A stretch of 64,000 bases of DNA. It comes from Candidatus Pseudothioglobus singularis PS1 (GTDB taxonomy: Bacteria; Pseudomonadota; Gammaproteobacteria; PS1; Pseudothioglobaceae). The stretch lies in assembly GCF_001281385.1 (NCBI RefSeq), contig NZ_CP006911.1, positions 1,240,001-1,304,000 on the forward strand, in the 5' to 3' direction. Shown one piece after another: positions 1,649-22,100 of this stretch. Within the stretch, counting starts at the first letter, position 1. The number at the start of each line of letters is the position of its first letter. A program made the translations under genes and the position numbers. Under the pieces are notes generated by a model. The model saw only the letters and a program-made list of their open reading frames with translations. It did not search any database and was not told where the DNA came from.

Positions 1649-1665
1649 ATCTTATTATTTGACAA

Positions 1666-2634: not shown

Positions 2635-3516
2635 TTATAGATTCTGCAAACAGGCTTTAAGAGCATCTTTCCAATGATCAATATTTAAAGAATATTCTTG
2701 CGAAATTTTTTTCTTACTCAAGATAGAATACTTTGGTCTCTTTGCAGGTAAAGGGTAATCTTTCGTTTTAATGGGATTTAAATTGCAATTAATCCCAGAA
2801 ATACTAATGATTTCTTTAGCAAATTCATACCAGCTAGATTCACCTTCATTAGAATAGTGCAATATTGCTGTCGGCTTTTCATTTTCAAGAAAGTTTTCAT
2901 CACTAACAATATTTAAAATTGAATGCGCGAGATCATAAGCATAGGTTGGTGTTCCAATCTGATCAGATACAATATCTAATGCATTATTTTTTGATGCAAG
3001 ATTCAAAATTGTTTTTACAAAATTATTACCAAATTCAGAATAAACCCAGCCAGTTCTGATAATTATCGAATTGAACGGCATAGTTGAAATAATAGCCAAC
3101 TCACCAGCCAATTTAGTTTCACCATAAATATTAAGTGGCGAAGGCTCATCATCCTCAGTATAGGGCTCTTCCTTATGTCCATTAAAAACGAAATCAGTTG
3201 AAATATGAATAAGTTTTATTTTGTATTTTTTAGAAATTTTTGCGAGCTCTCTAACTGCATTGTGATTAATCAAATTAGCTTGATTTTGATCCTCTTCAGC
3301 CTGGTCTACCTTAGTATATGCTGCACAATTTATAATAACATCAATATCATTACTAACGAAATACGACTGAATATTTTCTAAATTTTCAAGATTTAACTCT
3401 TCTCTGCTAGTAAAAATGAAACTGAAGGAACTGAGATTATCAATACATTTTTCATCTAGTAATCTTTTAATCGATTTTCCTAATTGACCATTCTTGCCTG
3501 TAATCAAAATTTTCAT
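2635..3516 (-). CDS. rfbD: dTDP-4-dehydrorhamnose reductase
   Basis: Last step of dTDP-L-rhamnose synthesis: NAD(P)H-dependent reduction of dTDP-4-keto-L-rhamnose. It is a short-chain dehydrogenase-like protein with an N-terminal nucleotide-binding motif (ITGKNGQLGKSI), the INCAAYTKVDQAEED segment typical of RmlD, HISTDFVFNG, and a YGETK catalytic Tyr/Lys pair. Length 293 is normal. It follows rfbC by 5 bp and is the last of the four rfb genes on the minus strand. All four steps from glucose-1-phosphate to dTDP-rhamnose are encoded together here. Confidence 0.95.
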   Translation of the reverse strand: MKILITGKNGQLGKSIKRLLDEKCIDNLSSFSFIFTSREELNLENLENIQSYFVSNDIDVIINCAAYTKVDQAEEDQNQANLINHNAVRELAKISKKYKIKLIHISTDFVFNGHKEEPYTEDDEPSPLNIYGETKLAGELAIISTMPFNSIIIRTGWVYSEFGNNFVKTILNLASKNNALDIVSDQIGTPTYAYDLAHSILNIVSDENFLENEKPTAILHYSNEGESSWYEFAKEIISISGINCNLNPIKTKDYPLPAKRPKYSILSKKKISQEYSLNIDHWKDALKACLQNL

Positions 3517-3522
3517 AATTAG

Positions 3523-4077
3523 CTAGTCAAATAAGTCTTTTGCGTTTGATAGACTTGGGCTATTTTTATCTTTCTCTGATAGCTTTAAAACTTCAGGATT
3601 TAATTTCCAGTTTATTTTTAAATCTTTATCATCAAATACAATACTCCTTTCATACTCTGGCGCATAAAAACTATCTACTTTGTATGTGAAAGTCGCTGTA
3701 TCACTTAAAACAACAAAACCATGGGCAAAACCTTTAGGAACAAAAAGTTGTTTTTTATTATGAGATGAAAGCTCTATAGCAACATGATGGCCAAAAGTTG
3801 GACTTGACCTTCGAATATCAACTGCAACATCTAGCACACTTCCTTCAATAACCTTTACAAGCTTTGATTGAGAATATGGAGAAACCTGATAATGAAGACC
3901 TCTAAGGACTCCTTTTGACGACTTGGATTCGTTGTCTTGAACAAAATTAATCTTACTACCAACAACCTTATTGAATAAATCTTGTCTAAAGGTTTCTACA
4001 AAATAACCTCTATCATCCCCATGAAGAGTTGGTTCAACTAAGATAATATCGGGAATTGCTTGCGGTGTAAACTTCAA
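3523..4077 (-). CDS. rfbC: dTDP-4-dehydrorhamnose 3,5-epimerase
   Basis: Epimerises C3 and C5 of dTDP-4-keto-6-deoxyglucose in rhamnose synthesis. A 184-residue cupin-fold enzyme with family landmarks: [11 protein letters not shown] near the N-terminus, [12 protein letters not shown] with the catalytic His, [19 protein letters not shown], and [12 protein letters not shown]. Its start overlaps the end of rfbA by 4 bp and it is followed after 5 bp by rfbD, a tight translationally coupled layout. Assignment is firm. Confidence 0.95.
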
Positions 4078-4955
4078 TTGAAACCCTTAGCTATTCTGAG
4101 AAGATATTGACCATACTGATTTTTTGAGAGTGGAGTAGCCAGAGCAATTAGTTCTTGTCTGTCAATATAGCCTTTTTCAAAAGCAATCTCTTCAATACAA
4201 GCGACCTTCAGTCCTTGCCTTCTTTCAATAATTTCAATAAAAGTAGATGCTTCAAGAAGATTTTCATGGGTTCCAGTATCAAGCCACGCATAACCTCTTC
4301 CCATTATTTCAACATTAAGCCTATCTTCCTCCAAAAACATTTGATTTACCGAAGAAATTTCAAGCTCGCCTCTATCGGAAGGCAAAACTTCAGCTGCTTT
4401 TTCAACTACGTCATTTGGATAAAAATATAATCCAGTAACTGCATAATTACTTTTTGGATTCTTAGGCTTTTCTTCAATACTAAGTGCCTTTCCTTGCTTA
4501 TCAAAATCAACTACGCCATATCTCTCTGGATCCTGAACATGAGAGCCAAAAACAGTGGCCATATTATTATCTTCTACACTAGCCAAAGCTTGCGATAATA
4601 TTTGATTCATACCATGGCCATAGTAAATATTATCTCCAAGAATTAAACTAACATTATCATCACCAATAAACTCTTTACCTAAAATAAATGCCTGTGCAAG
4701 ACCATCAGGTGATGGTTGAGCTAGATACTCAAACTTCATACCAATTTCAGATCCATCTCCTAATAACTGCCTAAACCTTGGTAAATCTTCTGGAGTTGAG
4801 ATAATTAAAACCTCTTGAATACCTGCAAGCATAAGCACTGATAGTGGATAGTAAATCATGGGCTTATCATAAATAGGCATTAATTGCTTTGATATCCCTT
4901 TTGTTAAAGGAAAAAGCCGAGTTCCTGAACCACCAGCAAGAATAATACCTTTCAT
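4074..4955 (-). CDS. rfbA: Glucose-1-phosphate thymidylyltransferase
   Basis: First step of dTDP-rhamnose synthesis: glucose-1-phosphate plus dTTP gives dTDP-glucose. The N-terminal signature [18 protein letters not shown] is complete, followed by [37 protein letters not shown] and the [19 protein letters not shown] segment. Length 293 matches the RmlA family. Its start codon shares one base with the rfbB stop (TAATG type), and it overlaps rfbC by 4 bp, so rfbB-A-C-D is one transcription unit. Confidence 0.96.
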
Positions 4956-6031
4956 TATATTTTTACTCCTAGACGTTCGAGCTTATAACTTCCATTTTTA
5001 ATATTTTCAGACCATAATAAATTATCTAAATACCACTCTACAGTTTTTTGCATACCTGATTTAAAATTCTCTTTTGGCTCCCAGTCCAATTCATTTTTAA
5101 TTTTTGTATTGTCAATCGCATACCTTACATCATGTCCTGGTCTATCTTGAACATATGTAATTAAGTCTCTATAAGAATCTAGCCCATTCAATCTATCTGG
5201 AATTAGTATGTCTAAAATTTCACAAATTTTTTCTACAACATCAATATTTTGAACCTCATTATTTCCACCAATATTGTAAGTTTCCCCAACCTGACCTTTT
5301 AAAGCGACAGTCAAAAGCGCTCTTACATGATCATTCACATACAACCAATCCCTAATTTGTTTTCCATCTCCATAAATTGGTAAATCTTTTCCCTCAATAG
5401 CATTAAGAATTACATGTGGAATAAGTTTTTCTGGGAATTGATAAGGACCATAGTTATTTGAACAATTTGTAATTAATACTGGAAGTTGGTAAGTGCGAAA
5501 CCAAGCTCTTACTAAATGGTCAGAGCTAGCTTTCGATGCGGAATATGGAGAACTAGGATCATAAGCAGTTTCTTCTGTGAAAAAATCCTCCTTTCCATTT
5601 AAATCACCATAGACCTCATCAGTTGAAACATGGAGAAATCTAAAGTCTTCTTTTTTTATTCCTTCAAGTTTTTGCCAATAATTTCTTACTTGTTCAAGCA
5701 ACACAAAAGTTCCCACAATATTTGTGTGAATAAAATCTTTAGGTCCATCAATAGATCTGTCCACATGAGATTCGGCAGCAAGGTGCATTACAATATCAGG
5801 TTTATGTACCTCAAAAGCCCTCTTTAGTTCTTTTTCATCACAAATATCTATATGCTCAAAAATATAATTTTCATTGGTCTCAATTGAAACTAAAGACTGT
5901 AAATTACCAGAATAGGTGAGTTTGTCTATGTTTACTACCTTATATTCAGTATTTTCAATCAGGTGTCTAATCAACTCTGAACCAATAAATCCAGCGCCAC
6001 CAGTTACAAGGAAAGTTTTATTAATGTTCAT
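4955..6031 (-). CDS. rfbB: dTDP-glucose 4,6-dehydratase
   Basis: Second step of dTDP-rhamnose synthesis, an NAD-dependent extended short-chain dehydrogenase. The Rossmann motif [16 protein letters not shown] is at the N-terminus, followed by [10 protein letters not shown]-like [12 protein letters not shown] region, [22 protein letters not shown] and the catalytic [15 protein letters not shown]. Length 358 is normal. It is the first gene of the rfb set and follows the third TPR-glycosyltransferase by 59 bp on the same strand. The product may supply rhamnose for surface polysaccharide or for the neighbouring glycosylation genes; the link to those genes is inference. Confidence 0.96.
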
Positions 6032-6090
6032 TTTTTAACAGAGAAAATTGGTTAATTTTACAATATCTCCTTGAGTTGATTGCTTTGGAA

Positions 6091-8814
6091 TTAAATATAA
6101 ATATGATCAGGCTCTAATCCCTTATGATATCTTTCATACATTTGTGTATAAGCTGACTCTAGATTTTTTGTAAATAATGGTGTGTCAAAAAGAGGAGCTG
6201 TAGATAGATTATTTTGGAGCTTTTCTTTTATTTTATTTAATTTTTCTGGATTTTTAGCAAGTTCAATAGCTAAGGATTCATACTCTTTAGATGAGGTAGT
6301 GATAAGTTCAGGAAGATTAAGAGCGTTAACTATACTAGCACCCATTCTTGCCTGATAAGCCTCTCCTTTTATTGTAAGCATAGGAAGACCCATCTTAAGT
6401 GCATCACTGGCTGTAGTTCCAGCATTATAAGGCTGAGTATCTAAGAATAGATCAGCTACTTTAAAACGCGCTAAATATTCAGGTCTTGATACACTATCTC
6501 CAAAGATAAGCCTTTCTGCAGCAACTCCTCTTTTCTTTATCTCTTTTGTCAAATTAGCCTTTGAGAGTTCATTATTAGCAAAAATTATTAACACACTGTC
6601 TTCAACAGCTTTAAGGATTCTTGCCCAACTATCAAAGGTTGTAGGCGTCATTTTATAAGTATTATTAAAACAACAGAACACAAAGCCTTTATCAGGAAGG
6701 CCTACATCTTTACGAGTCATAACAATATTGGGTGGCAAGTCTTTTGAATCATTCACCTGGAAGCTAGGCAGATAGACTATCTTCTCCATATAATATTTTT
6801 GACTCTCTTTAGGAATCATAACGGGGTCTGCAATCAAATAATCATAATACTCGGCGCCCATCGATCCTAGGTAGCCAATATAGCTTAGCTGGATTGGCGC
6901 AACGGACATCGCGAAGATATCCGTTCTAGACTCAGCCGTGAGACCTCCAAGGTCAACAGCAATATCGATCTGAATTGAACGAGAAAGCAAAACAATGTCT
7001 TTATGAGACATCAAGTCCACATCATGAAATTGGTCAACACCGGCTTTGATTCGAAGATTCATCTCATCATTAGTTGCTTTGCCAAAAGAGAAGGCGTGAA
7101 TCTCAAAATGATCTCGGTTGTGCATTTCATAAAGTTCAGCCGTTAGATAGGAAACCGGATGCACTCTAAAATCAGCAGAAAAATAACCGATTTTTATTTT
7201 TTGGTGTTTTTTATTACTACTAATTTTTGGTAATAAATTATTAATAGGATGATCGGCATTCATTCTAAGTTTTTGAGCAGTAATTTGTAGTTGAGGATCA
7301 TCAATTAAAGACATCAGTCCAAATGGCTCTATTACTTTTTCATTATTGATAATTTTGCTCTTGATTTCATTAATAAGACTGGCTAGATCATTCCAATTAC
7401 AGCAATTCATCTTAGCACTTACAAGGTTTCCAACAATGTAATCCAAACTTGGTTTTATAGTAAGCACTTTTTCATAAGCCTCCGCTGCATCTTTGTAATG
7501 ATGAAGCTTACAAAGAGTATGGCCAAGATTATTATGCGCTTCAGCCAAGTCAGGTTGTATCAATAAAGCCTGACGATAGGATTGGATTGCATCATTTAAA
7601 TGCTCATGTTCATCAAATGCTATTCCTAAATTATTAAAAGTATCAGCATCATTTGGGTTAATTTCTAATGCCTTTTTATATGATGCAATTGCATCATTAA
7701 CCTGGCCCAGCTTTTTCTGAACAACACCAAGATTATTATAAGCGTCAGAATATTCTGGATCGATATTGAGAGCCATATTATAGGATTTAACAGCCTTATC
7801 TGACTGACCAAGTTTGTTATAGCTTACTCCAAGATTGTTATAGGCTTCAGCATAATCTAATTTGAGATCTATCGCTCTTTTATAACTTTTTATTGCCTCA
7901 TTAAATTGACCAAGATCATTTAGAGTAACACCTAAATTATTGAGTAAATCAGTGTATTCTGGATTGTAAGTTAGTCCTTTTGAATATGAATTTAAGGCGT
8001 CTTGATTGCGTCCAAGTTTTTTATAAGAATTGCCTAAATTGTTATACAATGCTGGATTCTGTGGGTCAATCTCTAAAGCTCTTTGAAATGATTTAACTGC
8101 TTCGCCTAGCTGGTTATTTCCTAAATAAATATTGCCAAGGTTGTTATGAGCCTCTAGATAATCTGGGTTAATCTTAAGCGCTCTTTTATATGAAGAAATT
8201 GCATCATCTACTTTTCCTTTTTCATTAAGTGTATTACCTAAATTATTATGTGCCTCAGGAAAATTTGGATTAAGGGTTAATGCTTTTTTGTAGGATCTTT
8301 CTGCTGCTTCAAGTTGTCCCAAGTCAAACAAAACGATACCAAGACTGTAATGTGCTTCAACATATTCTGGTCTAAGAGAGATGGCCTTATTAAAACTAAC
8401 ATTTGCCTCGTCCAGTCTTCCGATTTCTTTTAGAACATTGCCAAGATTATTATGGGCTTCAGCATAGTTTGGATCAATTTCTATTGATTTTTTATAAATT
8501 ACAATTGGCTCATCTATTGTTTCAAATCCCTGGAGATTTAATTCATGCAGAACATTTCCAAGATTAAAGTATGCTTTAGCGTAACTTGGATCAAGGCTTA
8601 TTGCACTCTCATAACTCTTAACTGCAGAAGCTAATTGTCCTAAACCAGCATAGCAAGCACCATTTATATTATGAAGCAGTGAAACCTCTGGATACAATTT
8701 AATTAAAACCTTTAGAGAATTCAATGCTTCTTCAAATTGTTCATTTGAAAAAAGATTTATAACAGAATCAATTTGCTTTTGATCTGGCATTGATTGATCA
8801 TTTGAATTACTCAT
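6091..8814 (-). CDS. TPR protein with O-GlcNAc transferase-like (GT41/SPINDLY-type) C-terminus, copy A
   Basis: About 13 tetratricopeptide repeats of 34 residues (consensus NLGNxLxxLGxxDEAIxSYKKALxINPxYAEAHN) cover residues 14 to about 470. A GT41 catalytic region (GYFSADFRVHPVSYL, APIQLSYIGYLGSMG, CCFNNTYKM with the conserved Lys, DTQPYNAGTTASDAL, PLFDTPLFTKNLESAY) follows to the end. Family members transfer GlcNAc, fucose or glucose to Ser/Thr of proteins; donor and target here are unknown. No signal peptide, so cytoplasmic. I chose the ATG at 8814; a GTG at 8820 is possible and would overlap the upstream gene by 4 bp. Where copy C has DLAGHT, this copy has DLGGLT. Its catalytic DNA is nearly identical to copies B and C. 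Confidence 0.88.
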   Translation of the reverse strand: MSNSNDQSMPDQKQIDSVINLFSNEQFEEALNSLKVLIKLYPEVSLLHNINGACYAGLGQLASAVKSYESAISLDPSYAKAYFNLGNVLHELNLQGFETIDEPIVIYKKSIEIDPNYAEAHNNLGNVLKEIGRLDEANVSFNKAISLRPEYVEAHYSLGIVLFDLGQLEAAERSYKKALTLNPNFPEAHNNLGNTLNEKGKVDDAISSYKRALKINPDYLEAHNNLGNIYLGNNQLGEAVKSFQRALEIDPQNPALYNNLGNSYKKLGRNQDALNSYSKGLTYNPEYTDLLNNLGVTLNDLGQFNEAIKSYKRAIDLKLDYAEAYNNLGVSYNKLGQSDKAVKSYNMALNIDPEYSDAYNNLGVVQKKLGQVNDAIASYKKALEINPNDADTFNNLGIAFDEHEHLNDAIQSYRQALLIQPDLAEAHNNLGHTLCKLHHYKDAAEAYEKVLTIKPSLDYIVGNLVSAKMNCCNWNDLASLINEIKSKIINNEKVIEPFGLMSLIDDPQLQITAQKLRMNADHPINNLLPKISSNKKHQKIKIGYFSADFRVHPVSYLTAELYEMHNRDHFEIHAFSFGKATNDEMNLRIKAGVDQFHDVDLMSHKDIVLLSRSIQIDIAVDLGGLTAESRTDIFAMSVAPIQLSYIGYLGSMGAEYYDYLIADPVMIPKESQKYYMEKIVYLPSFQVNDSKDLPPNIVMTRKDVGLPDKGFVFCCFNNTYKMTPTTFDSWARILKAVEDSVLIIFANNELSKANLTKEIKKRGVAAERLIFGDSVSRPEYLARFKVADLFLDTQPYNAGTTASDALKMGLPMLTIKGEAYQARMGASIVNALNLPELITTSSKEYESLAIELAKNPEKLNKIKEKLQNNLSTAPLFDTPLFTKNLESAYTQMYERYHKGLEPDHIYI
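6101..7134 (-). repeat. Near-identical GT41 catalytic block, copy A
   Basis: Roughly 1 kb coding the C-terminal half of the catalytic domain. By eye, 6101-6934 matches the copy-C block without any difference I could find, and 6101-6461 matches copy B. The tract at about 6935-7010 differs in all three copies, and identity resumes to 7134. This pattern suggests recent gene conversion or duplication. Confidence 0.85.
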
Positions 8815-8816
8815 TA

Positions 8817-11324
8817 TCACTTAACATAAATATGATCAGGCTCTAATCCCTTATGATATCTTTCATACATTTGTGTATAAGCTGACTCTAGATTTTTTGT
8901 AAATAATGGTGTGTCAAAAAGAGGAGCTGTAGATAGATTATTTTGGAGCTTTTCTTTTATTTTATTTAATTTTTCTGGATTTTTAGCAAGTTCAATAGCT
9001 AAGGATTCATACTCTTTAGATGAGGTAGTGATAAGTTCAGGAAGATTAAGAGCGTTAACTATACTAGCACCCATTCTTGCCTGATAAGCCTCTCCTTTTA
9101 TTGTAAGCATAGGAAGACCCATCTTAAGTGCATCACTGGCTGTAGTTCCAGCATTATAAGGCTGAGTATCTAAGAATAGATCAGCTACTTGATATCTTGC
9201 TAAATACTCATCTCTCTCTAAGTTTAAACCAAAGATAAGCCTTTCTGCAGCAACTCCTCTTTTCTTTATCTCTTTTGTCAAATTAGCCTTTGAGAGTTCA
9301 TTATTAGCAAAAATTATTAACACACTGTCTTCAACAGCTTTAAGGATTCTTGCCCAACTATCAAAGGTTGTAGGTGTTATCTTGTAAGTATTATTAAAAC
9401 AACAGAACACAAAGCCTTTATCAGGAAGGCCTACATCTTTACGAGTCATAACAATATTGGGTGGCAAGTCTTTTGAATCATTCACCTGGAAGCTAGGCAG
9501 ATAGACTATCTTCTCCATATAATATTTTTGACTCTCTTTAGGAATCATAACGGGGTCTGCAATCAAATAATCATAATACTCGGCGCCCATCGATCCTAGG
9601 TAGCCAATATAGCTTAGCTGGATTGGCGCAACGGACATCGCGAAGATATCCGTTCTAGCTTTTGCAGTATAGCCAGAAAGATCAACGGCAATATCTATCT
9701 CAAGTGATCGCACAAAATGGACTATATCTTTATGAGACATCAAGTCCACATCATGAAATTGGTCAACACCGGCTTTGATTCGAAGATTCATCTCATCATT
9801 AGTTGCTTTGCCAAAAGAGAAGGCGTGAATCTCAAAATGATCTCGGTTGTGCATTTCATAAAGCTGTGCAGTGAGCGTAGAAACTGGGTGGATCTTAAAA
9901 TCTCCAGAGAAATAGCCAATACGAATCTTTGAATGCTTAGGATAAAGATCTGCAATGGGTAAATCATAATTTTTTGGAAAGTCGCTATTGGCCTTTATTT
10001 CTGCAGCCTTCCTTTGAAGTTCAGGACTATCAACCAATGAAAGAAGGGCAAATGGAGCGATTACTTTTTCATTATTAATGATTTTTTTTTCCAATTTAAT
10101 TAGTGAGCCAGGTAAATCAGGCCAGGCACAAAGATTTCTTTGATTATTTAAAATCTCACCAAATAAAAAATCCATATCAGGTTTTATTTTATATGCTGTT
10201 TCATAATATGTTTGAGACTTATCTCTTTGTTTTCGAGTTTTAAAAAAATTACCAAGGCTTGTATGTGCTTCAGCAAATTCTGGATTAATTTTAATTGCAT
10301 TCTCTAATGACTTGACTCCAACTTGAGATTGGCCAATCGAAACTAACGCATTACCAAGATCATGATGCGCATAAGCATATTCAGAATTAATAATTAATGC
10401 CTTTTCATAAAATTTAATAGCTTCATCAACTCGACCAAGAAAGCTCAAGCAACTTCCGATGTTATTCAAAGCTTCAAAAAAATCAGGTTTAACTGAAACT
10501 GCACTATGAAAATTATTGATTGCATCATCAAAATGTTTTAATTCTTTAAGCACTAAACCAAAATTGTAATAGGCTTCAGCAAATCTTGGATTAATGTCAA
10601 TTGCTTTTTTAAATGAATCAACTCCGGCTTTAAATTGACCAAGGGCAATCAAAACTTGGCCTAGATTATTATGCGCCTCATAGAATTTTGGGTTAATTTC
10701 AATTGCTTTATTGTAACTTTTAACTGCATCATCAAACCTTTCATGGTCTACTAAAGCAGTACCTAGATTATTATGAGCTTGCGCAAATTGAGGACTTATA
10801 TCTATTGCTCTAATATAACTTTTTATGGCTTTATCCGTTTGACCTAGATCTTTAAAAAGGTTACCAAGGTTGTTATGAGCGTCTGCAAAGTTTCTATTAA
10901 TAGCTATTGCCTTTTGGTAACTGTTGATTGCGTCATCATATTGGCCAAGCTCATTTAAAGTGATCGCAAGATTATAATGCGCATCAACATAGCCAGAATC
11001 AAGCGCTAACGCCTTCCTTAAGCTTTTAACTGCACCCTCTAATTGACCAGTGCCTCTCAAAGTAATACCTAAATTTTTATATGCTTCTGCATAATCTGGC
11101 TTAATATCAACTGCAGTCCCAAACATTTTAACTGCACCTTCTAACTTACCTAATTCTTTATAGCAAGCGCCAATTAAATTAAACAAAAATGGAACGTTAG
11201 GATAAGCCTCATTAAGAATTTTTATTTGATCTATTGCATCTTGATACTGACCACTTGAATACAAATTGATAACATAATCTATTTGCTCCTTTGAAAGTAC
11301 TTTTTGTTGATTTTGACCTGTCAT
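8817..11324 (-). CDS. TPR protein with O-GlcNAc transferase-like (GT41) C-terminus, copy B
   Basis: 835 residues: about 11 TPR units (residues 14 to about 385), then the GT41 catalytic region beginning near KIRIGYFSGDFKIHPVSTL. Conserved points are APIQLSYIGYLGSMG, CCFNNTYKI, DTQPYNAGTTASDAL and the C-terminal KGLEPDH ending. The active-site patch reads DLSGYT, and a second patch reads LNLERDEYLARYQVADLFL where copies A and C have DSVSRPEYLARFKVADLFL. The first TPR units (FNLIGACYKELGKLEGAV) resemble those of the upstream sulfotransferase rather than copies A or C. It lies 7 bp after copy C and nearly touches copy A. Presumably a cytoplasmic protein O-glycosyltransferase; substrate unknown. 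Confidence 0.88.
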   Translation of the reverse strand: MTGQNQQKVLSKEQIDYVINLYSSGQYQDAIDQIKILNEAYPNVPFLFNLIGACYKELGKLEGAVKMFGTAVDIKPDYAEAYKNLGITLRGTGQLEGAVKSLRKALALDSGYVDAHYNLAITLNELGQYDDAINSYQKAIAINRNFADAHNNLGNLFKDLGQTDKAIKSYIRAIDISPQFAQAHNNLGTALVDHERFDDAVKSYNKAIEINPKFYEAHNNLGQVLIALGQFKAGVDSFKKAIDINPRFAEAYYNFGLVLKELKHFDDAINNFHSAVSVKPDFFEALNNIGSCLSFLGRVDEAIKFYEKALIINSEYAYAHHDLGNALVSIGQSQVGVKSLENAIKINPEFAEAHTSLGNFFKTRKQRDKSQTYYETAYKIKPDMDFLFGEILNNQRNLCAWPDLPGSLIKLEKKIINNEKVIAPFALLSLVDSPELQRKAAEIKANSDFPKNYDLPIADLYPKHSKIRIGYFSGDFKIHPVSTLTAQLYEMHNRDHFEIHAFSFGKATNDEMNLRIKAGVDQFHDVDLMSHKDIVHFVRSLEIDIAVDLSGYTAKARTDIFAMSVAPIQLSYIGYLGSMGAEYYDYLIADPVMIPKESQKYYMEKIVYLPSFQVNDSKDLPPNIVMTRKDVGLPDKGFVFCCFNNTYKITPTTFDSWARILKAVEDSVLIIFANNELSKANLTKEIKKRGVAAERLIFGLNLERDEYLARYQVADLFLDTQPYNAGTTASDALKMGLPMLTIKGEAYQARMGASIVNALNLPELITTSSKEYESLAIELAKNPEKLNKIKEKLQNNLSTAPLFDTPLFTKNLESAYTQMYERYHKGLEPDHIYVK
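8830..9863 (-). repeat. Near-identical GT41 catalytic block, copy B
   Basis: Counterpart of the block at 6101-7134, in register without indels (offset 2729 bp). It matches copy A over the first 361 bp, then differs at about 9191-9228, has a few substitutions near 9370-9385, differs again at about 9659-9725, and is otherwise the same by eye. Confidence 0.8.
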
Positions 11325-11331
11325 TAACTAA

Positions 11332-14127
11332 TTACTCCACGAAGATATGATCAGGCTCTAATCCCTTATGATATCTTTCATACATTTGTGTATAAGCTGA
11401 CTCTAGATTTTTTGTAAATAATGGTGTGTCAAAAAGAGGAGCTGTAGATAGATTATTTTGGAGCTTTTCTTTTATTTTATTTAATTTTTCTGGATTTTTA
11501 GCAAGTTCAATAGCTAAGGATTCATACTCTTTAGATGAGGTAGTGATAAGTTCAGGAAGATTAAGAGCGTTAACTATACTAGCACCCATTCTTGCCTGAT
11601 AAGCCTCTCCTTTTATTGTAAGCATAGGAAGACCCATCTTAAGTGCATCACTGGCTGTAGTTCCAGCATTATAAGGCTGAGTATCTAAGAATAGATCAGC
11701 TACTTTAAAACGCGCTAAATATTCAGGTCTTGATACACTATCTCCAAAGATAAGCCTTTCTGCAGCAACTCCTCTTTTCTTTATCTCTTTTGTCAAATTA
11801 GCCTTTGAGAGTTCATTATTAGCAAAAATTATTAACACACTGTCTTCAACAGCTTTAAGGATTCTTGCCCAACTATCAAAGGTTGTAGGCGTCATTTTAT
11901 AAGTATTATTAAAACAACAGAACACAAAGCCTTTATCAGGAAGGCCTACATCTTTACGAGTCATAACAATATTGGGTGGCAAGTCTTTTGAATCATTCAC
12001 CTGGAAGCTAGGCAGATAGACTATCTTCTCCATATAATATTTTTGACTCTCTTTAGGAATCATAACGGGGTCTGCAATCAAATAATCATAATACTCGGCG
12101 CCCATCGATCCTAGGTAGCCAATATAGCTTAGCTGGATTGGCGCAACGGACATCGCGAAGATATCCGTTCTAGACTCAAGAGTATGTCCAGCTAAATCAA
12201 CGGCAATATCGATCTTAAAAGATCTCGCAAGCTCTGTAATATCTTGATGTGTCATTGCTTGAACTTCATGAAATTGGTCAACACCGGCTTTGATTCGAAG
12301 ATTCATCTCATCATTAGTTGCTTTGCCAAAAGAGAAGGCGTGAATCTCAAAATGATCTCGGTTGTGCATTTCATAAAGTTCAGCCGTTAGATGCTCACTA
12401 AAACCAGCAGAAAAATAACCAATTTTTATTTTTTGGCTTTTTGGATGATTCTCGATAACTGGCAATAAATTTCTTTTGGGGTGATAAACATTTGTCATTA
12501 GCTCGGCAACTTTTAATTGCAAAGCAGAATTGTCAATTAAAGCTAAAAGTACGAATGGATTGATAACTTTTTCATTATTAATGATTTTTTGCTTAAGGTC
12601 TGTAATGAGGCTCTTTAAATTATCCCAATTACAAAATTCCATTTTAGTTCTTAAGATATTTCCTAAAATATTATCTAAGTTTGGCTGAAGATTATTTGCC
12701 CTCTCATAAAAATTAAGCGCTTCATCAAGACGATCTAGTTCTCTCATTACATTACCCAGATTACTGAATGCCTCTGCAAAATTAGGATTAATTTCAATTG
12801 CCTTTTCAAAGTATAAGGCAGCTTCATCAAGCTTGTTAAAGTCAGTTGCTAAAATATTGCCTAAATTGTTATATGCCACAACAAGGCTTGGATTGATTTC
12901 AATCGCTTTTTTATAGCTCTCAACTGCTTTTTCAGGCTTTTGAAGATTTCTAAAGGCTTGAGCAATATTATTATAAGCTGCAGCAAAATTTGGATTAATT
13001 TGAATGGCCTTCTCAAAGCTTTTAACAGCCTTGTCCAAAAAATCATCCTTACCTAAAAGAATAAGGCCAAGATTATTATAAGTATGTTCAGAGTTTGGAT
13101 TGATCTCTATTGCCTTATTGTAAAAGTGAACAGCCTCATCAAAATGATTAAGTTCATTTAAAACATTTCCCAAATTAACATATGCCTCTTCAAAATCTGG
13201 AGCTTTAGAAATTGCTCTTTTGTAATATTGAACAGATTGCTCCAATTCACCCATCTTAGAAAAAATTATTCCTAGATTGTTAAGAGAGTCAGGATAATCT
13301 GGATTGTAGCTTAGTGCATTATGATATGATTTTAAAGCGTCATCAAAGCGCCCGAGTTCTTTGAAAGCATTACCTAAATTATTGTGTAATGCAGGATAAT
13401 CAGGATTAATTTTTAATGCTTTTTGGTAAGACTCCACAGCTTCACCAAAATATCCCAACTCTATAAAAGCATTTCCTAAATTATTATGCACTTCTGAAAA
13501 TTCTGCATTTACTTCTAATGCTTTTTGATAAGAATCAACTGCTTCACCAAGACGCCCAAGCTCTCTAAGTGTATTTCCTAAATTATTATGAGCTTCTGAA
13601 AAATCTGGCTTTAATTTAATCACTGCGTGTAGATGCTCTATCATATGCTCTAGTTTGCCCATTTCATTAAGTACGATGCAAATTCCACTATGCGCAATAA
13701 TTGAGTTTGGATCTATTTTTAAAGCCTTCTCATAGGCTTCAATTGCATTATCAAGCTGATCATTCTCTCGAAGCACATTCCCAAGATTACTTAATGCATT
13801 GACATAATATGGATCAATTTCAAGGGACTTTTCATAGCATTTTATAGATTCTTCATAATTCTTTAGCTGAAGATATGTGTCACCAAGATTATAAAAAGCT
13901 TTGGCATAATTTGGATCAAGATTAATTGCTATTTCATAACTCTTAACTGCTGAAGATAACTGTCCTAAACCAGCATAACAAGCTCCCATAATATTATGAA
14001 GTAATGAATCTCTTGGAGAGTTTTTAGACAAAGCTTGAGTTACCTCTAATGCTTTCTGAAATTTTCCACTTGAAAAAAGCTTGATAGCAGCATTCATTTC
14101 TAAATTTGATTGTTCTTCTGGATTCAT
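11332..14127 (-). CDS. TPR protein with O-GlcNAc transferase-like (GT41) C-terminus, copy C
   Basis: 931 residues, the longest of the three: about 14 TPR units (to about residue 500), then the GT41 region. The N-terminal cap (LLHNIMGACYAGLGQLSSAV) resembles copy A. The catalytic part has the family-like DLAGHT motif, CCFNNTYKM and DTQPYNAGTTASDAL. However, its first catalytic segment reads GYFSAGFSEHLTAEL where copies A and B have GYFSADFRVHPVSYLTAEL, a 4-residue deletion removing the HPV motif that is normally conserved in GT41. Activity is therefore uncertain. It starts 4 bp after the upstream TPR-sulfotransferase stop, which supports co-transcription. Confidence 0.88.
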   Translation of the reverse strand: MNPEEQSNLEMNAAIKLFSSGKFQKALEVTQALSKNSPRDSLLHNIMGACYAGLGQLSSAVKSYEIAINLDPNYAKAFYNLGDTYLQLKNYEESIKCYEKSLEIDPYYVNALSNLGNVLRENDQLDNAIEAYEKALKIDPNSIIAHSGICIVLNEMGKLEHMIEHLHAVIKLKPDFSEAHNNLGNTLRELGRLGEAVDSYQKALEVNAEFSEVHNNLGNAFIELGYFGEAVESYQKALKINPDYPALHNNLGNAFKELGRFDDALKSYHNALSYNPDYPDSLNNLGIIFSKMGELEQSVQYYKRAISKAPDFEEAYVNLGNVLNELNHFDEAVHFYNKAIEINPNSEHTYNNLGLILLGKDDFLDKAVKSFEKAIQINPNFAAAYNNIAQAFRNLQKPEKAVESYKKAIEINPSLVVAYNNLGNILATDFNKLDEAALYFEKAIEINPNFAEAFSNLGNVMRELDRLDEALNFYERANNLQPNLDNILGNILRTKMEFCNWDNLKSLITDLKQKIINNEKVINPFVLLALIDNSALQLKVAELMTNVYHPKRNLLPVIENHPKSQKIKIGYFSAGFSEHLTAELYEMHNRDHFEIHAFSFGKATNDEMNLRIKAGVDQFHEVQAMTHQDITELARSFKIDIAVDLAGHTLESRTDIFAMSVAPIQLSYIGYLGSMGAEYYDYLIADPVMIPKESQKYYMEKIVYLPSFQVNDSKDLPPNIVMTRKDVGLPDKGFVFCCFNNTYKMTPTTFDSWARILKAVEDSVLIIFANNELSKANLTKEIKKRGVAAERLIFGDSVSRPEYLARFKVADLFLDTQPYNAGTTASDALKMGLPMLTIKGEAYQARMGASIVNALNLPELITTSSKEYESLAIELAKNPEKLNKIKEKLQNNLSTAPLFDTPLFTKNLESAYTQMYERYHKGLEPDHIFVE
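11345..12378 (-). repeat. Near-identical GT41 catalytic block, copy C
   Basis: Counterpart of the block at 6101-7134, offset 5244 bp and collinear without indels. The first 834 bp (11345-12178) show no difference from copy A by eye. The tract at about 12179-12271 differs from both other copies, after which identity resumes. Confidence 0.85.
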
Positions 14128-14131
14128 AATG

Positions 14132-15796
14132 TTAATAATACAAATTTAAACCTTTAATTAAAGGCTTTAAATAGGCTTTATATTTTTTCCAAGCCTCTGA
14201 ACTTCCTTGGTACATTTTTTTTCTCACTTGCATTGAGCTTGTAGTTTTAACTGAGGTTTTATTGTTATGAAAGTTTATACATTTATCATCCCATTCGAGT
14301 TCACAGTGTGCCAACAATTTTTGAGTTTCTTCTTCTTGATTAGAGGTTAAATCTTCATAACAAAGGTCGTAAACTTTTCCTGGAAAAAGACCCTTCCAAA
14401 ACTCCATAAGATCTGAGTAAAGACCAAAATAAGAAGCTATATCCTCCTGATTAAATGAATATGCATTACCCCTAAATTCATATTTATATATTGACCAACA
14501 TGTGGCCATTGGATCTCTATTCATATGGATAACTTTGGCTTCTGGAAAGCAAGATAAAATAAATCCAATATAACGAAAGTTTAAAGGCATTTTGTCAACA
14601 ATAATATTTTCATCTATACCTAAAATTGGATGCGAATTAAGATACCCATCTCTTAACAATAATAATTCTTTTTTAGAAAAGCATTCTTCAATATCATTAT
14701 TAAAAGATTTGAGGAGTGGCACAACAAGCTTATTTAGATTATTTAATTCACCCAATCCTTTGACCTCTGAGTGGCTATCAAGGATTTGATGCACAAGAGA
14801 AGTACCAGAACGAGGCATTCCAACAATAAAAATAGGCTTAATAGGCTTCGTCTGAAATTCTGATAAATTAAATATTGAAGGAGGAGTTGTAAATGTCTCT
14901 TTAATTCGTGAAAAAAGTTTTTGATCCCTTTTTATAGAATAATTAAGTTCTTTTTTTCTTAAACTATTCGCTTGATTCAGATACTTAAATTGTTCTTTAG
15001 GATTTTCAAGATCTTCATAAACTTTTGATAAAGCAAAATTAAGCCCAATAAGATCTATCGAGTTAAGATTTTCACTTTCTAGGGCTTGTTTAATTTGTTT
15101 AATCTGTGGATCTTTCTTTTTGTAATTCTTAACTCGACTTAAGTGGTAGTGAGCATGCCCCCAACATGGATTAAGAGCCAAAGCTTTTTCTATATTTTCA
15201 ACAAATTCCTCCCTATTTCCAAGGTCTTTGAACACAAGAGCAAGATTAAAGAGAGCTTTTTCATAACTTGGGTTGCATGATATTGCTTTTTTAAAGCTTT
15301 TAATTGCTTTTTCTGGCTTCCCAGAATCATTATAAGCATTACCTAAATTATTGTATGCTTCAGCAAAATCATGCTTATATGCAACAGCCCACTCTAAACT
15401 TTCAATGGCAGAATCAATTTGTCCTAGATTTAATAATGTATTACCTAGATTATTGAGAGCATCAGGATAATTAGGTGTTATATCGATTGCTTTTTGATAA
15501 TTTTCAACTGCAACATCTTTTTGGTCAAGAGCCTGAAGAGTGGCTCCCAGATTAAAGAAAGCTTCCGCATATTTTGGATTTATTGAAACTGCTCTTTGAA
15601 ACATCTGCACAGCACCATCTAGTTGGCCTATCTCCTTATAACAGGCACCAATAAGATTAAACAATAAAGGTTGATTTGGAAATTTTTCATTTAATAGCTT
15701 TATATACTTTATAGCCTCATGAAATTGGCTTATTGAATACATCAAATAAATTTTTTCAAGCTCCTTTCTAGGAATTGAAGCTTGTTTATTTTTCAT
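14132..15796 (-). CDS. TPR-sulfotransferase fusion protein
   Basis: 554 residues. Six TPR units occupy residues 10 to about 217, followed by a helical linker and a sulfotransferase domain from about residue 321. The 5' phosphosulfate-binding loop reads PIFIVGMPRSGTSLVHQIL, and the 3'-phosphate-binding region reads VIHMNRDPMATCWSIY. Such enzymes move sulfate from PAPS to hydroxyls or amines of carbohydrates or proteins; substrate here is unknown. No signal peptide. It is first in the leftward run that continues with the three GT41 genes and rfbBACD. It is clearly paralogous to the divergent gene at 15896, sharing VRKKxYQGSSEAWK near the C-terminus. Confidence 0.88.
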   Translation of the reverse strand: MKNKQASIPRKELEKIYLMYSISQFHEAIKYIKLLNEKFPNQPLLFNLIGACYKEIGQLDGAVQMFQRAVSINPKYAEAFFNLGATLQALDQKDVAVENYQKAIDITPNYPDALNNLGNTLLNLGQIDSAIESLEWAVAYKHDFAEAYNNLGNAYNDSGKPEKAIKSFKKAISCNPSYEKALFNLALVFKDLGNREEFVENIEKALALNPCWGHAHYHLSRVKNYKKKDPQIKQIKQALESENLNSIDLIGLNFALSKVYEDLENPKEQFKYLNQANSLRKKELNYSIKRDQKLFSRIKETFTTPPSIFNLSEFQTKPIKPIFIVGMPRSGTSLVHQILDSHSEVKGLGELNNLNKLVVPLLKSFNNDIEECFSKKELLLLRDGYLNSHPILGIDENIIVDKMPLNFRYIGFILSCFPEAKVIHMNRDPMATCWSIYKYEFRGNAYSFNQEDIASYFGLYSDLMEFWKGLFPGKVYDLCYEDLTSNQEEETQKLLAHCELEWDDKCINFHNNKTSVKTTSSMQVRKKMYQGSSEAWKKYKAYLKPLIKGLNLYY

Positions 15797-15839
15797 TTAA
15801 AGTTTCCAAAGTAAAGATACAAAAATTTGCTAATGTAAT

Positions 15840-15870
15840 AAGCAATATTTTAGTATACTTTAATTAATAT
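15840..15870. promoter_or_regulatory. Possible shared divergent promoter between the two TPR-sulfotransferase genes
   Basis: The 99-bp gap between the two divergent genes holds AGTATACT (15852-15859), which is palindromic and reads as a TATACT -10-like box on both strands. No convincing -35 element was found. Leaders of about 30-50 nt would result in either direction. Weak, sequence-only prediction. Confidence 0.25.
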
Positions 15871-15895
15871 ATATACAAATAAATACCCTCTAATA

Positions 15896-17704
15896 ATGTC
15901 ATTAAAGACCGAGCGACTTTTATCTCGAGCAAAGAAACTTGCTAAAAATGGACAAGTTAAAGAAGCAAAGGAAATTTATTCTAATATTATTAAAACTTTT
16001 CCAAATAATCTTCTAGCAAGGAAGGAAATTAAACTATTAGAAAATAAAAAGGTGGCAAATCCGACTCAGGCTCAGTTAGATGAAGTTATGAGATTTTATT
16101 CATCTGGTGAAATTGAACAGGCCCTTAAGTATGTAGAATCCTTAATTAAAGATTATCCTAATGAATTTTTGTTATTTAATATATGTGGTGCATGTCATAG
16201 TGAGATTGGATCAATTGAACCAGCTATTGAAAATTTTAAAAAAGCTATAGCACTTAAAATAAATTATTCAGAAGCACAATTCAACCTTGGTGTTGCATTT
16301 CAGAAACTTAACCAGCTAGACAATGCATCTGAATATTATTTGCAGGCAATAAACTCTCAACATGCTTATCCCTCAGCTCATAATAATCTTGGGATTATTT
16401 TCTTAAATAAAGGCAAAATCGAAGCAGCCGTGAAAAGCTTCGAATGGGCAATAGCTTATAGTCCTAATTATGCAGAGGCATATAATAACTTAGGCTCAGC
16501 GCTCCAAGAACTCAAACAGTTTAAAAATGCTAAAAAGCAATTTGAAAAAGCTTGCTCTATTAATCCTAACTATGCAAAAGCATTTCATAACTTAGGCATA
16601 TTAAGTGAAATCATCAACCAACCAAAAGATGCAGTAAGTCGATATGAGAGAGCAGTTGAAATCGAACCAGAATTTGCAGAAGCATACAGAAATTTAAGCA
16701 AAGTTAAGAAATTTAAGGTGAAAGACCCACAAATAAATCAAATATACTTACTTTATTCTGGGAATAAATTAAATGTTGCTGATAAAGCAAGATTGGGCTT
16801 TGCGTTAGCAGACATTAATAAAAGTTTAGGAAATCACGAAGACTATATTAAATACTTAAATGAGGGTAATCGTCTAAGAAAAAAAGAAATAAAGTACTCT
16901 TTTGAAGAGAGTCAAAGTTTCCATTCAATTATTACCAAATTGTTTAGCTCTACTCAACCAATAGTTCAGAGCTCATCAAAAAATACTTCCGATATTAAAC
17001 CTATTTTTATTGTAGGAATGCCTCGCTCTGGCACAAGTCTAGTTGAGCAGATTATTTCTAGTCATAATTCTGTTCATGGAGCAGGTGAACTTCTTAATTT
17101 TAGAAACATTATAACTCCTATTTTAGACAATCATTTAAGCAAAAAAAATAATGCTATTTCAGAAGAAGATATGTTGATAATTCGAAAAGAATATCTTGAT
17201 TCTTTAGCAAGTCTTCAGGCCAAAGAAACCATAATTACTGATAAGATGCCAATGAATTTTAGATTATTAGGATTTATTTTATCGGCAATTCCTGATGCTA
17301 AAATTATTCATTTAACAAGAGATCCTATGGCTACATGTTGGTCAAACTTCAATCATTACTTTACTGCTGGAAATGGATTTTCTTTTGATCAGGTGGATTT
17401 AGCTAAGTTCTATCTTTTGTATCAAGAGATGATGACCTTTTGGCATAAATTATTCCCAAATAAAATATATGATCTTAACTATGAAAATTTAACAATCAAT
17501 CAAGAAGAGGAAACCCAAAAATTATTAGAATACTGTGATTTAGAGTGGGATGAAAATTGCCTTGATTTTCATAACAATCAGCGCGCAGTTTTAACAGCAA
17601 GCTCAGCACAAGTTAGAAAAAAAATATATCAAGGGAGCTCTGAGGCTTGGAAACAATATGAAAAAAATTTACAACCTTTAATTAAAGGATTAGGTGCCAA
17701 TTAG
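15896..17704 (+). CDS. TPR-sulfotransferase fusion protein (divergent paralog)
   Basis: 602 residues, transcribed away from the paralog at 14132. It carries an additional N-terminal helical segment (about 60 residues), then about six TPR units, a linker, and the sulfotransferase domain from about residue 368. The PAPS-binding loop is PIFIVGMPRSGTSLVEQII and the second motif IIHLTRDPMATCWSN. Near the C-terminus it reads VRKKIYQGSSEAWKQYE, very like its paralog. The substrate is unknown; PAPS-dependent sulfation of a glycan or protein is inferred from the fold. Within about 10 bp of its stop begins the remnant of a sodium:solute symporter gene, so its 3' end marks the edge of the accessory block. 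Confidence 0.87.
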   Translation: MSLKTERLLSRAKKLAKNGQVKEAKEIYSNIIKTFPNNLLARKEIKLLENKKVANPTQAQLDEVMRFYSSGEIEQALKYVESLIKDYPNEFLLFNICGACHSEIGSIEPAIENFKKAIALKINYSEAQFNLGVAFQKLNQLDNASEYYLQAINSQHAYPSAHNNLGIIFLNKGKIEAAVKSFEWAIAYSPNYAEAYNNLGSALQELKQFKNAKKQFEKACSINPNYAKAFHNLGILSEIINQPKDAVSRYERAVEIEPEFAEAYRNLSKVKKFKVKDPQINQIYLLYSGNKLNVADKARLGFALADINKSLGNHEDYIKYLNEGNRLRKKEIKYSFEESQSFHSIITKLFSSTQPIVQSSSKNTSDIKPIFIVGMPRSGTSLVEQIISSHNSVHGAGELLNFRNIITPILDNHLSKKNNAISEEDMLIIRKEYLDSLASLQAKETIITDKMPMNFRLLGFILSAIPDAKIIHLTRDPMATCWSNFNHYFTAGNGFSFDQVDLAKFYLLYQEMMTFWHKLFPNKIYDLNYENLTINQEEETQKLLEYCDLEWDENCLDFHNNQRAVLTASSAQVRKKIYQGSSEAWKQYEKNLQPLIKGLGAN

Positions 17705-18698: not shown

Positions 18699-19586
18699 TC
18701 AGTTAGCTTTTAATAGTTTTGCCATTGTAATACCCATATCTGAAGGTGTTGGTGCTACCAGAATTCCTACATCTTTAAGCATAATTACTTTTTCTGCAGC
18801 ACTCTCTCCACTGGAATTTACAATCGCTCCTGCATGCCCCATAAGGCGTCCAGGTGGAGCAGTTAAACCAGCAACATATGCTGCCATCGGCTTACTCATA
18901 TTATTTTTAAAGTAGTCTGCAGCTTCAGCTTCCTGAGGGCCGCCAATTTCTCCAATAATCAAAACAGCTTCAGTCTCATCATCTTTTTCAAAATGCTTAA
19001 GTATTTCTACAAAAGAACTTCCATTGATTGGGTCTCCACCAATACCTACAGCTGTACTTATACCAATACCTAACTCTTTCATTTGAGACGCTGCCTCATA
19101 TCCTAAAGTACCAGATCTTCCAATTAAGCCAACTTTGCCTTTCATATAGATGTGCCCTGGCATGATTCCCATCATAGCTTTACCTGGGCTAATAGTTCCA
19201 GCACAGTTTGGACCGGTCAATATCATTCTCTCATCTGGCTGAGCACTATTAATATATCGCTTTACTCGGATCATATCATGCGTTGGTATGCCATCAGTAA
19301 TACTAACGCAATATTTAATCCCAGATTCAGCAGCCTCCATAATTCCATCACCTGCATAAGCTGGTGGTACAAAAACAATACTAGCTTCTGCACCTGTTGC
19401 CTTAACAGCCTCCTCAACAGTATTAAATACGGGGATACCTAGATGGGTCATACCTCCTTTTCCAGGTGTTACTCCAGCAACCACATTGGTTCCATAATCA
19501 ATCATTTCCTGGGCATGAAAAGAGCCAATTCTCCCAGTAATCCCTTGAACTAATACTGGTGTTTTTTCATCAATAAATATACTCAT
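18699..19586 (-). CDS. mtkB: Malate-CoA ligase (malate thiokinase) subunit beta, SucD-like
   Basis: CoA-binding/phospho-His subunit of an ADP-forming CoA ligase. The N-terminal GITGRIGSFHAQEMIDYGTN is the CoA-binding Rossmann region, and GHAGAIVNSSGESAAEKV carries the phosphorylated His. At 295 residues it matches both SucD and MtkB. I call it mtkB rather than sucD because mtkA and malyl-CoA lyase are immediately upstream, the arrangement known from serine-cycle methylotrophs. The reaction is malate + CoA + ATP to malyl-CoA. It begins 10 bp after mtkA. The alternative is plain succinyl-CoA synthetase. Confidence 0.82.
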   Translation of the reverse strand: MSIFIDEKTPVLVQGITGRIGSFHAQEMIDYGTNVVAGVTPGKGGMTHLGIPVFNTVEEAVKATGAEASIVFVPPAYAGDGIMEAAESGIKYCVSITDGIPTHDMIRVKRYINSAQPDERMILTGPNCAGTISPGKAMMGIMPGHIYMKGKVGLIGRSGTLGYEAASQMKELGIGISTAVGIGGDPINGSSFVEILKHFEKDDETEAVLIIGEIGGPQEAEAADYFKNNMSKPMAAYVAGLTAPPGRLMGHAGAIVNSSGESAAEKVIMLKDVGILVAPTPSDMGITMAKLLKAN

Positions 19587-19596
19587 ATCTCAACCT

Positions 19597-20766
19597 TTAA
19601 TGATTATCCTTCCAGGCATCAACAACCTTATGAGCTGCATCAGCCAGAGTATTTGCTGTAATAACTTTCTTACCGCTATCTTTTAAAATTTTTTGTCCTT
19701 TTTCAACATTTGTTCCAGACAAACGAACAACTAAAGGAATGTTAATATCACGTTTATTTAATAAATCGACGATTCCCTGAGCTACCCAATCGCAGCGATT
19801 TATTCCTGCGAAGATATTAATTAGTATGGCTTCAACATTTTGATCTGAAAGAACTAACTCAATCGATGTTGCTACTCTTTCAGGTGATGCGCCGCCGCCA
19901 ATATCAAGGAAATTAGCAGGCTCTCCTCCAGCATGCTGAATCATATCCATGGTGGCCATTGCCAATCCTGCACCATTAATAATACAGCCTATGTTTCCTT
20001 CCAACCCAATATAGCTTAGGTCATGCTCTGCAGCATTGGTTTCTCTAGGATCCTCTTGAGTCTTATCGCGGAATTCAAAAATCTCTGGTCTGCGGTATAG
20101 AGCATTAGCATCAAATGTCATCTTTGCATCAATAGCTAATATTTGATTACCTGATGTTAAAACCAATGGATTAATTTCCAATAAATTAGCGTCAGTATCT
20201 CGAAAGGCACGATAACATTTCATTACTGCTCTGCTTGCAACTCCAACCGCCTGATTTGGCAGATCAAGCGTAAAGGCCAATTGCCTCGATTGAAAGGGTT
20301 GCATGCCAACTGCAGGATCAATAACAATTTTTGCAATTTTTTCAGGTGTCTCCTCAGCCACTTTCTCAATATCCATGCCACCCTCAGTTGAGGCAATGAG
20401 AGTAACTTTCTGAGTAGCACGGTCAAGAACAATACTAAAGTAAAGCTCTTTACTGATGTCACTAGCCTCTTCAACATAGATACTGGAAACCATCTTTCCT
20501 TGAGGGCCTGTCTGATTGGTGACTAGGTTATTTCCAAGTAGCTTGTCACAAAATTCAGAAATTTCGCTATGACTTTTACATAATTTAACTCCACCCGCTT
20601 TTCCTCTTGCACCAGAGTGCAGTTGTGCTTTAACTATCCATGAATTTCCACCCAATTCATTAGCCTGATAAATTGCCTCTGTTGCTGAGTGTGCAATACC
20701 TCCCTTAGGAATTGGAACCCCATACTTAGCTAGGAGTTTTTTGGCTTGATATTCATGAATATTCAT
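19597..20766 (-). CDS. mtkA: Malate-CoA ligase (malate thiokinase) subunit alpha, SucC-like
   Basis: ATP-grasp subunit of the CoA ligase, paired with the gene at 18699. The N-terminus [20 protein letters not shown] is typical of SucC/MtkA, and [35 protein letters not shown] and the C-terminal domain with [10 protein letters not shown] follow. Length 389 fits. Eight bp separate it from mclA and ten from mtkB, so mclA-mtkA-mtkB form one operon on the minus strand. Substrate (malate rather than succinate) is inferred from this context. In the serine cycle it activates malate for cleavage to glyoxylate and acetyl-CoA; the set could also run in the direction of glyoxylate assimilation. Confidence 0.83.
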
Positions 20767-20774
20767 AACTACAC

Positions 20775-21865: not shown

Positions 21866-21942
21866 TGGCGTCCCGTAGGAGATTTGAACTACCTGTTTCC
21901 AGGATGAAATCCTGGCGTCCTAGGCCACTAGACGAACGGGAC
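21866..21942 (-). tRNA. tRNA-Glu (TTC)
   Basis: On the minus strand a 7-bp acceptor stem (GTCCCGT/ACGGGAC), discriminator G and encoded CCA are seen. The anticodon stem CCAGG/CCTGG closes loop ATTTCAT, giving anticodon TTC (Glu). The T arm contains GGTAGTTCAAATCTCC. It is the third tRNA of a minus-strand cluster. Confidence 0.93.
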
Positions 21943-21972
21943 ATGAAAATTTTAGAGGATTTTAAATTGAAA

Positions 21973-21996: not shown

Positions 21997-22009
21997 AATC
22001 AAAAAAAAA

Positions 22010-22084: not shown

Positions 22085-22100
22085 AAAATCATTTTTGCTA

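Follow-up and report, generated by a model that had tools for sequence, protein, structure and literature searches.

Several described systems resemble parts of the locus reported here. O-GlcNAc transferase (OGT) and SPINDLY combine a TPR superhelix with a GT41 catalytic domain; a tyrosine in SPINDLY at the position equivalent to C917 of human OGT would clash with GlcNAc, and tyrosine or phenylalanine occurs there in other bacterial GT41 enzymes (Zhu et al., PMC9715652). HMW1C also has the GT41 fold and glycosylates protein, although it attaches N-linked glucose or galactose from UDP donors to an adhesin (PMC9715652). In Caulobacter, the cytoplasmic O-glycosyltransferase FlmG is described as binding its target, flagellin, through an N-terminal domain and as having a donor pathway of its own, for pseudaminic acid, and no sulfotransferase is mentioned in the parts of that account drawn on here (PMC7591256). 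TPST1/2 and bacterial RaxST perform PAPS-dependent protein sulfation. Variable islands with cell-surface genes are described in marine bacterioplankton as HVR2 and HVR4 of SAR11; HVR4 lists a sulfotransferase beside pilin genes, and the sections of the report used here make no mention of a GT41/rml combination (PMC2217521).

The locus in 'Candidatus Thioglobus singularis' PS1, a SUP05/arctic96BD-19 gammaproteobacterium (PMC4616169), differs from each of these. Unlike OGT and SPINDLY, it has three tandem GT41 paralogs with apparently converted catalytic domains and adjacent donor-sugar genes. It shares with FlmG, in the parts of the FlmG account used here, the predicted plan in which an N-terminal domain binds the target and the sugar comes from a pathway reserved for it, but rmlBACD lies beside the PS1 GT41 genes and no pseudaminic acid pathway is present there. 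The PS1 sulfotransferases (STs) differ from TPST1/2 and RaxST by a fused TPR arm, and the functions compared with those of these enzymes and of HMW1C are predicted ones. The parts belong to known families, and what is new is their combination, the exchangeable donor genes and the separate evolution of arm and catalytic domain. A literature search of incomplete coverage found no description of GT41, TPR-ST and rml genes together.

The PS1 genome is a single contig of 1,714,148 bases, and the window, the whole stretch of 64,000 nucleotides that was analysed, spans positions 1,240,001-1,304,000. The features of the island and its borders, in window coordinates, are as follows.

932..2607, minus strand: yfiH and rluD, the conserved left island boundary, on the same strand as the rml genes
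2635..3516, minus strand: rmlD, dTDP-4-dehydrorhamnose reductase (TIGR01214, above cut-off)
3523..4077, minus strand: rmlC, dTDP-4-dehydrorhamnose 3,5-epimerase (TIGR01221, above cut-off)
4074..4955, minus strand: rmlA, glucose-1-phosphate thymidylyltransferase (TIGR01207, above cut-off)
4955..6031, minus strand: rmlB, dTDP-glucose 4,6-dehydratase (TIGR01181, above cut-off)
6091..8820, minus strand: GT_C, TPR-GT41 of 909 aa (PF13844, E 1e-71; catalytic domain 6091-7197)
8817..11324, minus strand: GT_B, TPR-GT41 of 835 aa (PF13844, E 6e-74; catalytic domain 8817-9926)
11332..14127, minus strand: GT_A, TPR-GT41 of 931 aa (PF13844, E 1e-67; catalytic domain 11332-12429)
14132..15796, minus strand: ST1, TPR-sulfotransferase of 554 aa (PF13469, E 1e-42, plus TPRs), at the head of a possible operon
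15896..17704, plus strand: ST2, TPR-sulfotransferase of 602 aa (PF13469, E 1e-44)
18699..21722, minus strand: SucD-like (MtkB), SucC-like (MtkA) and HpcH/HpaI lyase (Mcl) genes, the right boundary, conserved in many relatives

The preliminary description had recognized five adjacent TPR proteins, three of them GT41 enzymes and two sulfotransferases, and the Pfam matches to PF13844 and PF13469 bear this out; no further gene of either family occurs elsewhere in the PS1 genome. It had also named a complete dTDP-rhamnose set, and all four Rml enzymes of the dTDP-L-rhamnose pathway are indeed encoded, each passing its curated TIGRFAM cut-off, with rmlC the sole PF00908 gene of the genome. The run ST1-GT_A-GT_B-GT_C-rmlB-rmlA-rmlC-rmlD (15796-2635) is co-directional and nearly gapless, as reported earlier (gaps of 4, 7, -4, 59, -1, -4 and 6 nt in that order), and it continues into rluD after a gap of 27 nt and then into yfiH after 17 nt, so that a single ten-gene transcript from ST1 through yfiH is possible. 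ST2 is divergent from ST1, with 99 bp between them, and on account of this orientation lies outside the ST1-led transcript. A terminator and promoter scan gave no excess over shuffled sequences. The GT_C ORF starts with GTG and has an ATG two codons inside. The mol% G+C is 33.2 in 2635-17704 and 38.3 in 17705-64000; since positions 1-2607 also have 33.7 mol% G+C, composition lends a foreign origin weak backing. Type IV pilin-like N_methyl genes exist in PS1.

All three PS1 GT41 proteins match PF13844 with 229-250 bits (cut-off 25) and contain multiple TPRs, and when the catalytic part was searched with phmmer it matched human OGT (E 4e-66), XcOGT (1e-58) and SPINDLY (9e-42). In the alignments the tyrosine of the PYNAGTT motif falls at the position of human OGT C917, so that the PS1 sequences carry, as SPINDLY does, a tyrosine and not the small residue fit for UDP-GlcNAc. 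This disfavours a plain O-GlcNAc enzyme and weakens the earlier expectation of HexNAc on the target proteins, although the tyrosine leaves the donor unnamed. Four residues of the HPVS segment, close to human OGT H498, are missing from GT_A in the alignment, and its activity may differ given this gap. For the GT_C catalytic domain, the structure predicted by AlphaFold (mean pLDDT 66.8, pTM 0.66) is too weak for a reading of the donor pocket. A glycine at the human H920 position (NAGTTASD) was considered as a marker of dTDP-deoxysugar use; it fits within the genus, but the motif is common outside it without nearby rml genes, and it was rejected as a general rule.

Among 83 genomes of the family, GT41 genes are restricted to the genus of PS1, where they occur in 10 of 29 genomes, and strong matches of TPR-ST size are found in 15 of the 29. 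All 10 genomes with GT41 have a TPR-ST, against 5 of the 19 without (Fisher p=0.0002; p=0.003 at a genome completeness of at least 75 %), the samples behind these genus statistics being small and phylogenetically non-independent. Gene maps show that the site between RluD-YfiH and either Mtk/Mcl or MBL-NadD is filled differently from genome to genome, with TPR-ST and TPR-GT41 genes in varying number, with lone TPR proteins or with a luciferase-like/GST/SnoaL/lipase cassette, and that it is free of any TPR gene in G014, G028 and G029 (G006 and G030 were left out of the count because contig borders cut the site). The locus is therefore a strain-variable island. An extra ST lies away from the island, beside dnaK-dnaJ-eno-corC or sbmA, in G015, G016, G020 or G022.

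The ST domain of the TPR-ST proteins exceeds the PF13469 cut-off, contains the P-loop motif PRSGT and aligns with TPST1; its nearest solved relatives are protein-tyrosine sulfotransferases, with TPST1 the best (E 1.5e-6). APS kinase (E below 1e-30) is present in 15 of the 29 genus genomes, and in seven genomes (G007, G016, G022, G023, G025, G027 and G031, the copy in G023 being on a contig with many broken frames) the distance between an APS-kinase gene and a TPR-ST gene is no more than about 1.2 kb. In G016 a gene for a CysQ-like Inositol_P phosphatase separates the two, and G022 has a gene of equal size at that position. Over the 29 genomes, 12 have both ST and APS kinase, three have ST alone, three have APS kinase alone and 11 have neither (p=0.003). 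The APS kinase of PS1 itself is encoded at 114.6 kb and is joined to a GTP-eEF1A_C-like domain. The proximity of APS kinase genes supports PAPS use by the TPR-STs and, with the kinship to TPSTs, upholds the PAPS dependence proposed in the preliminary description.

The two kinds of enzyme also resemble each other at their N-termini. Against a profile built on the first ~85 residues of the genus GT41 proteins, 16 TPR-STs scored a median of 84 bits at their N-termini, compared with 29 bits for internal TPRs of STs, 36 bits for those of GTs and 28 bits for the N-terminal ends of 47 GT41 proteins from other genera; the GT41s and STs of the genus thus carry one type of N-terminal cap that goes beyond generic TPR likeness. 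We read this as common descent or an exchange of arms, and the cap may bind a common docking partner. Together with the linkage of ST and GT41 genes, the single genus-specific cap type makes a shared docking principle plausible.

A feature of the GT41 genes missed by the preliminary description is that their last ~1.1 kb are 94-95 % identical at the DNA level in the three PS1 copies, with exact runs of up to 834 nt that include fourfold-degenerate sites and are interrupted by two short variable patches, whereas the TPR halves are mostly near 50-65 % nucleotide identity. As proteins, the catalytic domains of PS1 share 91-95 % identity among themselves and 74-78 % with those of G021, the closest relative with several GT41 copies, while the TPR arms are 41-48 % identical among the PS1 paralogs and 53-66 % identical between presumed PS1-G021 orthologs (66 % for GT_C and G021_C, 54 % for GT_A and the G021 copy x, 53 % for GT_B and the G021 copy B). 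Maximum-likelihood analysis unites the catalytic domains of the three PS1 enzymes in one clade (100/100), with the two G021 domains as its sister group. The pattern recurs in relatives, in sequences that differ from those of PS1, with exact runs between GT41 copies reaching 1354 nt in G018, 482 nt with further shorter ones in G007 and 314 nt in G021; the same comparison did not find the pattern in G011. This pattern is one of concerted evolution, which we attribute to gene conversion, with the catalytic domain homogenized and the divergent arms kept. The caveat is the PS1 assembly, which is based on SOLiD mate pairs and in which PCR was used to close 177 gaps (PMC4616169); this history, together with the alternation of exact identity and short variable patches in the PS1 copies, would fit a near-identity that is an artefact of short-read assembly. 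We consider this quite improbable, since separately assembled genomes have the same pattern, with patchy differences in G007 (a single contig) and G021, and since the PS1 copies form a clade of their own apart from G021.

The rmlBA genes lie beside GT41 in five of the seven GT41 islands (PS1, G021, G011, G020 and G015, with G007 and G018 lacking them) and in none of the six complete islands without GT41 (G014, G019, G025, G027, G028 and G029; p=0.02). Their partners are rmlCD in PS1 and G021; in G011 they are genes for an RfbH-like PLP enzyme, an NAD epimerase and an RmlC-like epimerase, and G020 has genes of matching size in this order. In G015 a DegT aminotransferase gene sits between GT41 and rmlB, and a small nucleotidyltransferase gene adjoins the GT41 pair of G007. 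The accompanying dTDP-sugar genes are thus exchanged between genomes. The island RmlB proteins form a clade (98/97) apart from the RmlB proteins of polysaccharide loci, but the RmlA tree does not separate island from polysaccharide copies and does not show co-inheritance; the association of rml genes with GT41 is significant at the island level only, that of RmlC with GT41 genome-wide in the genus being non-significant (p=0.19). The genus GT41s fall into three lineages, and the rmlBA-linked ones (PS1, G021, G015, G020 and G011_a) group with G022 and one Rhodospirillaceae sequence, which has no rml gene within its 10-kb flanks. We regard the pairing of GT41 with rmlBA as suggestive.

Outside the genus, none of the loci among the best 80 GT41 loci in 84,980 species (Chlorobiaceae, betaproteobacteria, Methylococcaceae, Polynucleobacter, Rhodospirillaceae and others) has an adjacent ST, and only one of them, the Chlorobiaceae locus L102, has strong rml matches in the fetched flanks. 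A PF13469 match of any kind occurs in 11 of 29 GT41 genomes outside the genus and is absent from the other 18. With no full set seen outside the genus among these best 80 relatives, the combination appears, as far as tested, to be a lineage feature. The linkage of GT41, TPR-ST and rml genes in relatives that the preliminary description envisaged stands for GT41 and ST within the genus and for rmlBA at the island level; it is not significant for RmlC genome-wide, and among the relatives outside the genus STs are not adjacent and adjacent rml genes nearly absent. Its interpretation as a whole, a coupled glycosylation and sulfation of a surface or envelope protein, is partly supported.

Sugar-adding and sulfate-adding enzymes with the same kind of arm, beside genes for activated sugars, make protein decoration probable, and to judge from these sequences PS1 probably puts sugar and sulfate on chosen proteins. 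We propose a strain-variable, cytoplasmic protein-modification island that would join arm-guided GT41 glycosylation to sulfation from PAPS and keep its chemistry by conversion, a proposal that seems to us evenly poised between right and wrong. The soluble enzymes would each consist of the common N-terminal cap, a divergent TPR arm that picks the target protein and a catalytic domain, for which OGT and SPINDLY, being TPR-guided, and FlmG, being modular with a dedicated sugar pathway, are the precedents. The GT41 domains would all transfer one and the same sugar, most likely a 6-deoxyhexose from the dTDP-sugar pathway encoded next to them (in PS1 the donor would be dTDP-L-rhamnose), and the TPST-fold domains would pass sulfate from PAPS to the target. 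Recurrent gene conversion would hold the three GT41 catalytic domains to the same chemistry, while divergence of the arms would direct them to different targets. Glycosyltransferases and STs may act on the same proteins, and the products may be surface or exported proteins. The fuller form of the proposal, in which two chemistries, a common docking cap, divergent arms and an exchangeable dTDP-deoxysugar cassette work together, dTDP-6-deoxysugars are the GT41 donors and proteins are modified with deoxysugar as well as sulfate, we put forward tentatively, with the balance somewhat against it.

That dTDP-rhamnose is the donor of the PS1 GT41s is uncertain. A polysaccharide locus of PS1 at 1.355-1.395 Mb encodes GT2s, a GT9 and a GT4 that matches the beta-1,4-rhamnosyltransferase Cps2T (E 6e-62, short of the curated cut-off), so that dTDP-rhamnose may serve there too, or there alone; no PF00908 gene belongs to this locus. 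(G025 was considered as an example of rml genes next to one resembling Cps2T and was dropped, as no RmlA or RmlB was found in the 15.6 kb there.) The rml genes might then feed the synthesis of a surface polysaccharide elsewhere, the GT41s might take UDP-GlcNAc, UDP-glucose or a similar compound as donor, and the site might be a hotspot of surface-related genes without a joint pathway. The presence of rml genes outside the island in G022, G009 and G016, and of NAGTTASD-type GT41s elsewhere without rml nearby, fits this possibility, which we take seriously but find somewhat doubtful: island rmlBA occurs only with GT41, island RmlB forms its own clade, and in PS1 rmlB follows GT_C co-directionally at a distance of 59 nt. 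A different objection concerns the coupling itself, since GT41s and STs could modify unrelated targets and owe their association to a common origin of their TPRs and to joint transfer on an island that varies. That five genomes have an ST without GT41, that a second ST can lie away from the island (G015, G016, G020 or G022) and that the arms differ strongly between enzymes would all agree with it; yet a GT41 without an ST is never seen in the genus, and the GT41s and STs have the genus-specific N-terminal cap in common, and we think independent targets rather unlikely.

If the proposed arm-guided modification is correct, dTDP-deoxysugars would join the donors of the GT41 family, and the island would be a bacterial example in which glycosylation and sulfation of proteins are coupled. 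The three GT41 enzymes would also represent a natural experiment on target choice by TPRs, with near-identical catalytic domains and different arms encoded in one operon. Finally, the island would explain one source of strain variation in the abundant ocean lineage SUP05/arctic96BD-19, variation that may matter for phage recognition or attachment.

The three TPR-GT41 genes of PS1 (GT_A, GT_B and GT_C) have near-identical catalytic domains, which we read as gene conversion, and two short patches are spared by it, at positions 6865-7044 and 6415-6504 of the window (about residues 593-652 and 773-802 respectively in GT_C numbering). The first of these patches holds the residue that apparently aligns with H495 of SPINDLY, and this is histidine in GT_A, tyrosine in GT_B and leucine in GT_C. 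GT_A (11332-14127) also lacks four residues of the HPVS segment, in the part of the alignment near H498 of human OGT; the enzyme could be altered in activity, or the gap could be a sequencing error.

The following features lie at the right edge of the island and past its right flank:

17875-18690, + strand, symporter-like ORF of 271 aa (NF046076, E-value 3e-9)
21866-22176, cluster of tRNA-Glu, tRNA-Glu and tRNA-Ala, outside the island's right flank

The similarity of the 271-aa ORF to sodium/solute symporters is confined to their C-terminal part, a Pfam search with it gave no matches, and it is probably a remnant.

In several relatives (loci L042, L044, L045, L046, L061, L155 and L156) the same hotspot carries a cassette of luciferase-like monooxygenase, GST, SnoaL-like and lipase-like genes. 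A second site for TPR-sulfotransferase genes is found in relatives at loci L047, L049, L053 and L058, adjoining the dnaK-dnaJ-eno-corC genes in L047, L049 and L058 and an SbmA-like gene in L047, L049 and L053. Genome G023 (L054 and L055) has numerous broken frames, both across the island and in adjoining housekeeping genes, and these are more likely to be sequencing errors than signs of decay.

Outside the genus, the Methylophilaceae genome AH-578-I23 encodes a GT41 protein (L087) and a sulfotransferase (G096:C14:541-1083), each near a contig end, and the two genes might be neighbours.

The PS1 APS kinase (L146:9108-10118), predicted to supply PAPS, is fused to a GTP-eEF1A_C-like domain with the full GTPase part absent, and open frames of the same size (337-352 aa) occur in several relatives. 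As to what such sulfotransferases modify, a hint comes from hypervariable region HVR4 of Pelagibacter (SAR11), where Table 9 of PMC2217521 places a sulfotransferase gene next to pilin genes; pilins could be targets of such enzymes.
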